Shown here one piece after another: positions 19,097-51,786 of a stretch of DNA of 64,000 nt. The position numbers were made by a program, and so were the translations under genes. The stretch is from Aneurinibacillus soli. GTDB lineage: Bacteria > Bacillota > Bacilli > Aneurinibacillales > Aneurinibacillaceae. The notes under the pieces are model-generated. The model worked only from the letters and a program-made list of their open reading frames with translations, ran no database searches and was not told where the DNA came from. The stretch covers positions 3,260,001 to 3,324,000 of the forward strand of contig NZ_AP017312.1 in the NCBI RefSeq assembly GCF_002355375.1, read 5' to 3'. Positions within the stretch are counted from its first letter, which is position 1; the number at the start of each line of letters is the position of its first letter.

Positions 19097-19130
19097 AACT
19101 GTCCCTCAGGTTATCGGGGCATTTTTTTTG
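19097..19130 (+). terminator. Rho-independent terminator
   Basis: TGTCCC pairs with GGGGCA (one G-T pair), followed by eight T residues, just after the transporter gene. Confidence 0.75.
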
Positions 19131-19137
19131 GAATCGA

Positions 19138-19250
19138 CAACGTGCGGTGGGAGAGAGTAGGAGAAGGGATGAGTCGTTCTCTCTCCGCTAGGTAAAAAGC
19201 CTACAGACGCTCTCTTGTTCCTCCCTTTTCCCACTCCACGCAACGCTTCG
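19138..19250. repeat. Short decayed relative of the structured repeat family
   Basis: The left end CAACGTGCGGTGGGA is the terminal sequence seen on the full copies (compare the right end of the copy at 19393-19616). The right end TCCCACTCCACGCAACG is its imperfect inverted complement. Purine-rich and pyrimidine-rich arms face each other, but the conserved central core is missing. The rest of the 19133-19688 gap, about 140 bases up to the next copy, shows no gene that I can support. Confidence 0.45.
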
Positions 19251-19392
19251 GTTTACAAAATCGCGCTCGATGTAAATGAAAAGTCATCAAATCATTACTG
19301 TCTTCCTCGAACAAATCGTCTTTTACTTTCAACTACATAGCAAAGCTCAGCATCAAAGCTTTTTGCTTGCTATTTATCTGCCAAACTAAGTC

Positions 19393-19616
19393 GGGAGCGG
19401 AGAAGGGAGTCGCTATGGAACGCCTTTACGCAGAATACTTAGCGGAAGGGGGGAGTCGAACGGACTTTTGCCCACAATGCTTCTGTGAATTTCCCTCTTC
19501 GCTCCTCGTTTGTGGGCGAGTTCGCCTGCCTCCTGGAGCGGACAGCCCTCGCTTCCCCGCAAAGCGTAACAAAGTGACAAAGCGACTTCCTTCTCCGCTC
19601 CCCCACCGCACGTTGG
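19393..19616 (+). repeat. Structured repeat family, copy A
   Basis: The arms GGGAGCGGAGAAGGGAGTCGC (19393-19413) and its complement at 19582-19602 pair with one mismatch. The inner stem GCCCACAA/TTGTGGGC is perfect. The shared core CCTGGAGCGGACAG lies at 19532-19545 and AGCGGAAGG near 19443. The right end CACCGCACGTTGG matches copies B and C. No convincing protein is encoded. Confidence 0.75.
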
Positions 19617-19688
19617 CAGAAGCAAATCAGCAAACAAAAAAGAGGCTAGCCTCACACTGAGACAGCCTCTTCTCTGCTATTTTTGCTA

Positions 19689-23973: not shown

Positions 23974-23987
23974 GATTCAATCGTAAT

Positions 23988-24093
23988 TCAATTGCCGAGT
24001 CCATTACGGAGCGGGGGACCCGAAACTCGGGGTGAATCGCACAGTGCGTAGGGCGTCCTTTCGTCCGAACCCGTCAGCTAACCTCGCAGGCAG
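23988..24093 (+). promoter_or_regulatory. c-di-AMP riboswitch (ydaO/yuaA type)
   Basis: Hallmark sequences of the ydaO leader appear in order: ACGGAGCGGGGGACCC, CGGGGTGAATC, TAGGGCG with a CCTTTCG loop, then CCCGTCAGCTAACCTCG and AGGCA. In this class ligand binding usually switches the gene off. It lies 16 bases before the ATG of a small unknown gene. No separate terminator hairpin is obvious between aptamer and gene, so control may occur at translation. Confidence 0.9.
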
Positions 24094-24109
24094 AATAAGG
24101 AGAGGAATT

Positions 24110-25023: not shown

Positions 25024-25039
25024 AATTTTCAATTCGAGC

Positions 25040-25298
25040 AAAAAGCAATGAGGAAGAATAGTACGCAGGATGCGACGTTGCAGAGAGCCGGGGGCAGGTG
25101 AGAGCCCGGTACGTACCGCCCTGGAGAATGGACTTCTGAGCTCCGTGCTGAAGCGGCATCTGCTGTGAGTAGGCATTGGCGGTTTCCCTCCGTTACCGGG
25201 ATTAAGTGAGCCTTACGCTAAGCTTTAGCTGTGCTGTTTGGCTAACGAGGGTGGCACCACGGTTCTTCGTCCCTTATGGACGAAGGGCCTTTTTTATT
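25040..25298 (+). promoter_or_regulatory. T-box leader specific for tRNA-Trp
   Basis: The conserved T-box sequence GAGGGTGGCACCACGG is at 25247-25262, followed by a terminator (TTCGTCC/GGACGAA with a T run near 25288). Stem I includes GGAAGAATAGTA and AGAGAGCCGGGGG. The specifier loop reads GAATGGACT, giving a TGG (Trp) codon. Uncharged tRNA-Trp would favour the antiterminator and expression of trpS. Confidence 0.92.
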
Positions 25299-34122: not shown

Positions 34123-34208
34123 AAAAAAATAAAAACCGGCCGCATAATCCGCACAGCCGGTTGCACTACTCGCTCCAGACAATCTAAGTGCCCACATACA
34201 GATTGTCT
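34123..34208 (-). promoter_or_regulatory. Two hairpins, possible attenuator leader
   Basis: On the minus strand AGACAATC (34208-34201) pairs with GATTGTCT (34184-34177). Next, AACCGGC (34162-34156) pairs with GCCGGTT (34140-34134), followed by a T-rich run. This terminator ends just before the ribosome site of the acidic hypothetical gene. It may regulate that gene, or it may end a short RNA or the 9-codon frame MKDNLYVGT located in the first hairpin. Confidence 0.45.
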
Positions 34209-34337
34209 TTCATCGCCTCTTTTATCGTTTCTATTTTTAGAAATATCATACATTATTTCAATAAAAACCTTTATATGCAACCTCAATATTATCAGACATA
34301 AGTCCTGCATTCAAGACTGTATTTTACAAATTTAGCA

Positions 34338-45168: not shown

Positions 45169-45316
45169 CTCTATACCCCTCTTCTTAATTACATCTGTAA
45201 GAATAGGCAAAAACACCTACAATACCAGTATCCACCATTTCAGACTAAGAAACAAGTAGTAAATTTGGTTTTCACTTCCACAAATATAAAAAAGAGTTTG
45301 AAGGGTTGGGCGCTAC

Positions 45317-45551
45317 CCAACGTGTAGTGAAGGAGCAGAGAAGAGAGAAGCAAGAGAGCGCCTGTACGCTTGTTCCACAGCGGAAGGAGAACGACGAACA
45401 GGCCTTTGCCCGCAATCCTTCTATGAAGAAGCATCCTTGTCCCCTTTTTGCGGGCACGTTCGCCGGGCTCCTGGAGCGGACAGTCAACACGTCCTGTCAA
45501 GCGTACCCAAGCGAACGGCTTCTCTCTTCTCTACTCCCACCACCCAAGTTG
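45317..45551 (+). repeat. Structured repeat family, copy B
   Basis: The left end CCAACGTGTAGTGAAGGAG is the inverted complement of the copy A and C right ends. The outer arms GGAGCAGAGAAGAGAGAAGC (45332-45351) and its partner at 45518-45537 pair over 20 bases with one mismatch. The inner stem is GCCCGCAA/TTGCGGGC. The shared core CCTGGAGCGGACAG lies at 45470-45483. Positions 45169-45316, before the repeat, hold no gene I can support. Confidence 0.8.
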
Positions 45552-45573
45552 CTCGATTCCACAAAAACCACAC

Positions 45574-45603
45574 AAAAAAGACAGAATACAAATGTATCCT
45601 GTC
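45574..45603 (-). terminator. Terminator of the tRNA operon
   Basis: On the minus strand GACAGGATAC pairs with GTATTCTGTC (one G-T pair) around ATTT, followed by TTTTTT. Confidence 0.85.
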
Positions 45604-45634
45604 TGCTATAGATATATTTACATGCCTGAAACGA

Positions 45635-45708
45635 TCGGGAAGACAGGATTTGAAACTGCGACCTTCTCGTCCCGAACGAGGCGCTCTACCAAGCTGAGCC
45701 ATTTCCCG
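45635..45708 (-). tRNA. tRNA-Pro (CGG), degenerate-looking
   Basis: A tRNA-Pro body with anticodon CGG in the loop TTCGGGA. Acceptor strands CGGGAAA and TTCCCG pair. Three oddities are visible: position 53 is T opposite C61 (normally an invariant G-C pair), the base of the anticodon stem is a C-A mismatch (27-43), and no CCA is encoded while the other three tRNAs have it. It may be decaying, since tRNA-Pro(UGG) can read all Pro codons. Confidence 0.75.
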
Positions 45709-45716
45709 ATACGATA

Positions 45717-45793
45717 TGGTAGCGGCGAAGGGGATCGAACCCCCGACCTTACGGGTATGAACCGTACGCTCTAGCCAGCTGAGCTACACCGCC
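45717..45793 (-). tRNA. tRNA-Met (CAT), elongator type
   Basis: A complete 77-base tRNA with anticodon CAT, encoded CCA and all four arms. The sequence follows the B. subtilis elongator tRNA-Met (GGCGGTGTAGCTCAGCTGG start), not the initiator. Confidence 0.93.
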
Positions 45794-45816
45794 TTAACCT
45801 ATTCAATAAAAATATA

Positions 45817-45908
45817 TGGCGGAGAAGGAGGGATTCGAACCCTCGCACGGTTTAACCCGTCTACTCCCTTAGCAGGGGAGCCCCTTATAGCCACTTGGGT
45901 ACTTCTCC
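45817..45908 (-). tRNA. tRNA-Ser (GCT)
   Basis: A 92-base class II tRNA with a long variable arm. The anticodon loop CTGCTAA sits between CTCCC and GGGAG, giving anticodon GCT for AGC/AGT codons. CCA is encoded. Confidence 0.94.
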
Positions 45909-45917
45909 ATATAAAAA

Positions 45918-46012
45918 TGGCGGACAGAGTGGGATTCGAACCCACGAGACGAGTTATCCCCGCCTACACGATTTCCAATCGTGCTCCTTCGGCCAAACTC
46001 GGACATCTGTCC
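45918..46012 (-). tRNA. tRNA-Ser (GGA)
   Basis: A 95-base class II tRNA. The anticodon loop TTGGAAA sits between CACGA and TCGTG, giving GGA for TCC/TCT codons. A long variable arm and encoded CCA are present. It is the first tRNA of the operon. Confidence 0.94.
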
Positions 46013-46043
46013 ATGATGTATTGTCCTGTTAGCGACAAAAGTT

Positions 46044-46072
46044 AATTTATCATATCCAGAGTAAATATGCAA
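46044..46072 (-). promoter_or_regulatory. Promoter of the tRNA operon
   Basis: On the minus strand TTGCAT (46072-46067) and TAAATT (46049-46044) are 17 bases apart, about 32 bases before the first tRNA. The end of repeat copy C lies 18 bases upstream of the -35. Confidence 0.6.
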
Positions 46073-46089
46073 TATGTTTTTCATCCTTC

Positions 46090-46317
46090 CCAACGTGCAG
46101 TGGAGGAGCGAGATCAGGCGGAGCCTCGTCACTTCGGTACGCTCTCTCTGGAGTTGAGACTGTCCGCTCCAGGTGCCAGGCGAACGGCCCACAAAAGAAA
46201 ACCCTCGATGTATTTCAGAAGAAGCATTGTGGGCAAAATCTGTTCGCCTGCCCCCTTCCGCTGGGTAGCGCGTACAGGCGTTCCGTTGCCCCGCCTGATC
46301 TCGCTCCTAACCAAGTT
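46090..46317 (-). repeat. Structured repeat family, copy C (inverted)
   Basis: This copy is inverted relative to A, B and D. The outer arms AGGAGCGAGATCAGGCGG (46104-46121) and the partner at 46291-46308 are perfectly complementary over 18 bases, yet differ in sequence from the arms of B and D. The inner stem is GCCCACAA/TTGTGGGC. The core CCTGGAGCGGACAG is on the minus strand at 46173-46160. Confidence 0.8.
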
Positions 46318-46395
46318 TGGACAGATAACTATCAAGCGCACATCTTGTATGGCTTCGCCCCACAGATTGTTTTGCTCTTTTTTAAATCGAAACAT

Positions 46396-46612
46396 TGTTG
46401 GGAGTAGAGAAGAGAGAAGTAAGAGAGCGCCTGTACGCTTGTTCCCCAGCGGAAGGAGCCCGGCGAACGGGCTTTTGCCTGCAACCCTTCTATGAAAAAG
46501 CATCGTGGGTCCTCTTTTGCAGGCGAGTTCGCCGGGCTCCTGGAGCGGACAGTCAACACGTCCCTGCCAAGCGTACCGAAGCGAACGGCTTCTCTCTTCT
46601 CTACCCCCACCA
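46396..46612 (+). repeat. Structured repeat family, copy D
   Basis: The outer arms at 46400-46419 (GGGAGTAGAGAAGAGAGAAG) and 46589-46608 pair with one mismatch. GGAGCCCGGCGAAC pairs perfectly with GTTCGCCGGGCTCC, and GCCTGCAA with TTGCAGGC. The core CCTGGAGCGGACAG lies at 46539-46552. Copies C and D are separated by about 80 bases with no gene. Confidence 0.8.
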
Positions 46613-46693
46613 CTACGCCTGGTCGATTTACAAAAGCCAAAATAAAAACAGGAAAGAAGGTTCACGCCCCTCTCTCCTGTTATGCACGTAATA

Positions 46694-51495: not shown

Positions 51496-51507
51496 TACAG
51501 TGGTACT

Positions 51508-51640
51508 CCCTTCGTGCTTACGAGGTTAGTTGACGGGTTGAGAGGATAAGGTCTCCCTCCGCAAACGCGGATACACCCCATATGAAGCATTCATGTCCCC
51601 CGCTCTGTGCCTGAAAAAAAGCACAGACTCAGCAAGTAAC
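51508..51640 (-). promoter_or_regulatory. c-di-AMP riboswitch (ydaO/yuaA type)
   Basis: On the minus strand the hallmarks appear in order: AGAGCGGGGGACA, GGGGTGTATCCGC, GCGGAGGGAGACC, then CCCGTCAACTAACCTCG and TAAGC. It lies just upstream of the NlpC/P60 gene. High c-di-AMP would be expected to lower its expression. The remaining 51641-51786 stretch shows only AT-rich promoter-like sequence. Confidence 0.87.
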
Positions 51641-51786
51641 TATTTTTTTATTTTTACACTCCTTAGACAATAACCGACTCTGTTTCCTTGATTTACTTAA
51701 CATAACAACAACGTCCCTTATTCTATCGAAATGAGGTGATAATAGATAGGGAATTAACAAAAACTTCACATTTTAGACACATTTTT

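Follow-up and report, generated by a model that had tools for sequence, protein, structure and literature searches.

The window analyzed here, a stretch of 64,000 nucleotides from the chromosome of Aneurinibacillus soli, contains four copies of a structured repeat, termed units A to D (Table 1). Each carries the exact core CCTGGAGCGGACAG together with AGCGGAAGG and TTTGCCYRCAA, as the first-pass annotation had found, and each is matched by R1, a covariance model built from one unit, within ~15 bases of where that annotation had placed it. No other exact match to the core occurs in the window, and where it matches with three mismatches elsewhere, the other parts of the unit are missing. Also present in the window are bacilliredoxin BrxA/B and several riboswitch or leader elements (two c-di-AMP, one T-box, and one c-di-GMP-II, located at 23983-24107, 25039-25277, 34146-34229, and 51501-51644).

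Table 1. Structured repeats and their insertions in the window (G006 is a relative in the same genus)
Feature	Position	Strand	Remarks
Composite 1	19099..19635	.	Begins with a terminator-like hairpin, followed by the decayed inverted unit, a spacer of 155 bp, and unit A
Decayed partner of unit A	19154..19237	-	29.6 bits, E 2e-7
Unit A, structured repeat	19393..19601	+	199 bits to model R1
Insertion with unit B	45296..45581	.	Missing in G006
Unit B	45331..45538	+	205 bits
Composite 2 (C + spacer + D)	46082..46625	.	544 bp insertion, missing in G006
Unit C, X-type end of composite 2	46105..46308	-	184 bits
Spacer of composite 2	46309..46399	.	91 bp; both units' 5' arms and small hairpin TGTATGGCTTCGCCCCACA
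Unit D, Y-type end of composite 2	46400..46608	+	222 bits

The copies had been annotated as separate units, but C and D are two parts of one composite, and A has an inverted partner at a distance of 155 bp. This partner has suffered an internal deletion that removed its middle and left the arms and the 5' part. Unit B was inserted into a terminator A-tract downstream of tRNA genes; the right boundary of this insertion is approximate, with AAAAAAGA on either side. Judged by its sequence, the 5' arm of unit B looks like a C-type outer end fused to a D-type unit, as in a deletion product of a composite.

The unit is ~210 nt long. Its long outer helix is followed by a second helix and an internal loop, and then by two more helices and a hairpin. 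In the internal loop, CAGCGGA faces GGAGCGGACAGU...CUUC, and the unpaired positions there are near-invariant across genera. The stems are wholly different between genera, and single-sequence folds give the same architecture. For copy D, the fold has a z score of -8.9 relative to dinucleotide shuffles.

Covariation was assessed with 64 units from the host and other genera aligned to R1. Standard pairing occurs in 94.6% of 1945 pair cells, and 31 of the 33 pairs have double-sided changes. The covariation score is 0.772, compared with 0.198 for shuffled and no more than 0.08 for slid controls, in an alignment that was fitted to the structure and so favors the score. Because G-U and U-G cells outnumber A-C and C-A cells (94 versus 26), the strand under selection is the one shown; the family thus shows the covariation with strand asymmetry by which a structured RNA is recognized. 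The compensating arms described by the first-pass annotation are real: the window copies' own arms form duplexes of -34.7 to -45.1 kcal/mol, whereas swaps between copies mostly give -14 to -31. Units B and D, whose arms had been described as alike, still pair well when swapped (-29.9 and -40.0). Over 59 units, the median is -30.4 for a unit's own arms and -11.5 for swapped arms. Covariation beyond the controls and across genera supports the earlier proposal of selection on the fold, as RNA or as single-stranded DNA.

The host chromosome, a single contig of 4.117 Mb, carries about 150-190 units of this family, the window copies among them. The family had been taken to have four copies, a number that proved far too small: the host genome has 192 matches to the core with at most two mismatches, compared with 10 for a reversed control, and at least 150 full matches to R1. 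Many of these further copies, for which the first-pass annotation had proposed a search, are intergenic.

Most units are paired. Eighty regions around copies contain 170 units and 69 '-+' composites, and neighboring pairs less than 700 bp apart are head-to-head ('-+') in 52/54 cases. Each pair combines one unit of subclass X with one of subclass Y: an inverted X-type end is followed by a spacer and a Y-type end, so that the 5' sides face each other. As read from the sequences by eye, X outer arms appear to carry a TGCTTGA motif, and Y arms resemble TTTTTTGAATC...GATTCCAC. Spacer lengths form two clusters, around 154 bp for type I and around 91 bp for type II, to which the C/D pair belongs. Composites are ~540-750 bp long and contain no gene, and no recurring ORF was found in or beside units; the surroundings hold common host genes, repeats of other kinds and, in one case, an IS1595-like insertion within a spacer.

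Several observations on the host chromosome accompany these results. Unit density is highest at 2.0-2.25 and 2.75-3.25 Mb. Units are scarce at 0-478 kb and 3.83-4.12 Mb (~290 kb) of the contig, where one lies at 4066624; if the contig begins near the origin, this scarcity may reflect origin-proximal depletion. A second dispersed repeat, the terminator-like hairpin GAGGCTGTCCC..AAGCCAGAACATGGCGA..GGGACAGCCTC, was seen in the flanks of locus L185 and in the type I composite consensus. It occurs alone or, inverted, at the outer ends of composites, and may either belong to the mobile unit or serve as its preferred target. At locus L180 (5078-5943), an element assigned by eye as IS1595/ISXO2-like lies inside a composite spacer; the corresponding composite in G006 is without it. 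A RAGATH-18 RNA match (L109, 759-825) is located ~700 bp from a unit.

Matches to R1 are found in 10 of the 61 nearest genomes and in 45 of the 399 Bacilli genomes sampled, representing 19 of 145 genera, including Brevibacillus. The Bacillota sample yielded 2/398, namely the host genome and, as the single borderline match outside Bacilli, one at 6.9e-4. Among the matches listed in a motif pattern scan are Aneurinibacillus tyrosinisolvens, several Brevibacillus species, Melghirimyces, and Kroppenstedtia; pattern matches scattered in unrelated phyla are probably due to chance. At the checked loci of other genomes, adjacent opposite-strand pairs are '-+' in 7/7 (one of these being G006), and Brevibacillus-like genomes contain tandem copies. 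A search of plasmid and phage collections gave no match, and a motif pattern scan of viral contigs gave just two hits. At loci L066 and L080, which belong to two different families, units lie immediately 5' of an apparently LonB-like gene. The two proteins are 67.6% identical, and the site may be either an old common one or a hotspot.

The family is mobile in recent time. G006 is syntenic with the host at ~90% identity, and stretches around host copies were compared with the syntenic stretches of this relative. At least 10 loci are common to both genomes, and ~12 host insertions are missing in G006, including all three in the window. Composites are missing at precise sites. The composite 1 site is empty in G006 (...AACTTCAGAAAAAAGAGGCTAGCC), and the A-tracts of a terminator border the insert in the host. 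At the composite 2 site, G006 reads ...CAACATTTTTTT followed without a gap by ATTTACCAAAAAC... Target duplications vary, consisting of the 6 bp CAACGT, an A-tract, ~15 bp, or none. A single unit at L180 is also missing in G006, where the outer arms alone persist. This site resembles the scar of a deletion more than an untouched target, and thus some apparent gains may be losses.

Empty sites are mostly in or beside the T-tracts of intrinsic terminators. A hairpin and T-run pointing into the element is present at 50% of ends, compared with 2% of shuffled sequence. In 56 of 65 composites, such a terminator-like hairpin and T-run points into one end or more. On the basis of simple ORF calls, blocks lie between convergent genes in 43/100 cases, versus 18/160 for unit-free neighbors, and their median distance from gene 3' ends is 90 bp. 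This terminator association, the paired X/Y architecture, and the spread over several Bacilli families were all missed by the first-pass annotation.

Copies at sites shared with G006 bear on selection after insertion. In 17 orthologous units, identity is 0.897 for the core motifs, 0.883 for the rest of the unit, 0.839 for the spacer, and 0.875 for flanking genes. The core motifs have thus diverged at the same pace as other positions, which would be expected if the fold matters for movement; mobility, and not local function, appears to be under selection. However, orthologous copies have 41 compensatory double changes, versus 12 expected by random placement, and 266 broken pairs, versus 352. 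These two deviations may reflect some mild local selection after insertion, or gene conversion among copies.

The compensatory excess is one of the observations that could be explained if the units were cis-acting structured RNAs. Such RNAs would be transcribed within 3' UTRs or by readthrough, would act in termination, mRNA stability, or protein binding, and would have their fold selected site by site. The covarying, strand-specific fold fits this explanation, as do the location ~90 bp behind gene ends and the enrichment between convergent genes. However, the core motifs are conserved no better than the remainder of the unit once inserted, and of the comparable sites that carry units in the host, roughly half or more are empty in the ~90% identical G006. 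Moreover, the units are placed after the genes' terminators, and a transcript across a head-to-head pair reads one unit antisense. We consider a cis-acting RNA unlikely. Of the two main options named in the first-pass annotation, a MITE-like element and a structured RNA, the polymorphic insertions and the lack of preferential conservation of core motifs in shared insertions favor the former.

No mobilizing gene was found beside copies at the loci examined, nor was an autonomous relative sharing the ends found at loci around copies. Long '-...+' gaps were considered as candidate autonomous copies; the 2.6 kb gap at L143 holds, as judged by eye, just TetR-like and MFS-like transporter genes. No tested enzyme family (Y1, RVT_1, TnpB, or IscB) fits all carriers. 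Integron attC sites were also rejected as a model, because the insertion boundaries are outside the fold and not at the internal AAC site.

A REP/BIME-like mode of movement, in which a Y1 (IS200/RAYT) transposase works on hairpins of single-stranded DNA, would account for the predominance of head-to-head dimers, which is shared with REP families (PMC3733652). There are two Y1_Tnp genes in the host and one in G006. However, Y1_Tnp genes are lacking in carriers G035 and G054, no units lie near the Y1 loci examined, and REPs measure 20-40 bp compared with ~210 nt for the units. This mechanism is quite unlikely.

The RNA-like covariation and invariant loops raise the alternative of an element that moves at the RNA level, in the manner of a retroelement or retrozyme. 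A reverse transcriptase would copy the folded RNA back and insert the product behind terminators, and the loops could constitute a ribozyme or a binding site for the enzyme. Group IIC introns insert behind terminators, and the targets of the present family resemble this site preference. Nevertheless, RVT_1 has no match in the host or in G006, the two genomes richest in copies and recent insertions. In addition, the units match no group II intron or ribozyme in Rfam, and two inverted, differing ends are not expected from one transcript. We therefore judge an RNA-level element to be very unlikely.

Still less probable is that the units are remnants of a guide-RNA transposon, such as an ORF-less IscB (HEARO) or TnpB omega-RNA type. 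They do resemble such remnants in being ORF-less, structured, ~200 nt long, and multicopy, and the host genome has 17 TnpB matches. However, IscB is absent above the cut-off in the host and G006, TnpB has no match in carriers G054, G204, and G374, and the units do not match the HEARO or IS605-orfB models of Rfam. A consistent linkage of units to a TnpB or IscB gene was also not seen. Because carriers without Y1 or TnpB may hold old copies only, we regard these two enzymes as disfavored rather than as eliminated.

Searches of the window and 20 loci from other genera with Rfam 15, at gathering and relaxed thresholds, matched no unit, which bears out for this database the earlier statement that no matching family was known. 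Likewise, no description of the family was found in the open-access literature. The closest parallels are with several known systems. REP families (GTAG/CGTC palindromes associated with RAYT) are simple hairpins of 20-40 bp that occur mostly as head-to-head dimers and are reported from other phyla (PMC3733652). Like REPs and BIMEs, the present units have many extragenic copies, mostly 3' of genes, form head-to-head dimers (52/54 here), have co-varying pairs, and resemble what is thought to be non-autonomous mobile DNA (PMC3733652). Unlike them, they are ~210 nt long with several helices and invariant internal loops, their consensus has no visible GTAG/CGTC tag, and no RAYT is linked to them.

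Among repeats of Bacilli, bcr1 is an intergenic element of ~150 bp with conserved secondary structure and traits of mobile elements, as cited in PMC2267715. The present family shares its intergenic location, conserved structure, and mobile traits (PMC2267715). By the description given there, it is set apart by its size and by spanning several Bacilli families, whereas bcr1 is reportedly confined to the B. cereus group (PMC2267715). Stem-loop families such as Bhal-1 and Efa-1 are similarly intergenic, have conserved stem-loop structure, and come from Firmicutes (PMC2267715). The species listed for this survey of 40 genomes belong to none of the carrier genera found here, and its Bacilli families other than bcr1 are mostly shorter than our units (PMC2267715).

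The units are like MITEs in being short, non-coding, dispersed, and multicopy, with inverted ends and polymorphic insertion at precise empty sites. MITEs are moved by a parent enzyme that acts in trans. However, the ends here are large folded domains of two subclasses instead of short terminal inverted repeats, and there is no target duplication of fixed length. HEARO elements and the IscB omega-RNA are comparable as ORF-less multicopy elements with a conserved RNA fold, but their Rfam model is unmatched and IscB is missing from the high-copy genomes. The family thus behaves as a giant head-to-head BIME or as a MITE with structured ends, and fails defining features of both, because the size and tag of REPs, RAYT linkage, and a fixed target duplication are missing. 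It is apparently a family of structured mobile repeats in Bacilli that has so far gone undescribed.

We favor the interpretation, with a probability of roughly 0.63, that the family consists of non-autonomous, MITE/BIME-like mobile elements whose two ends are large folds recognized in trans. A trans-acting enzyme would recognize both of the folded ends, probably in the form of single-stranded DNA during replication or transcription, and would join them to T-tracts behind terminators. Single-stranded DNA is preferred over an RNA route because no reverse transcriptase was found. Selection would maintain the fold only in source copies that can still move, whereas inserted copies would drift and could lose one end by deletion, giving rise to single units. 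The position behind terminators would cause little harm; because many composites have a terminator hairpin at an outer end, termination of the neighboring gene would be preserved. Several facts weigh against this interpretation: no mobilizer was found beside the copies, no tested enzyme family fits all carriers, and the inconsistent target duplications are unlike those of a simple transposase. The compensatory excess in orthologous copies and the apparent deletion scar at L180 also count against it. More tentatively, with the odds somewhat against it, the units may represent a hitherto undescribed class of transposable element, with ends that are large multi-helix folds read as structures and not as sequences, and with an enzyme that targets intrinsic terminators.

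At least one genome thus has more than 100 copies and clear recent insertions, yet no known mobilizer. The invariant loops amid freely co-varying helices provide a specific starting point in the search for a protein or catalytic activity by which the fold is read. The family also offers a clean system in which to address two questions: whether transposition is driven by DNA ends read as structures in cases other than small hairpins and attC sites, and what makes terminators a preferred site for insertion.
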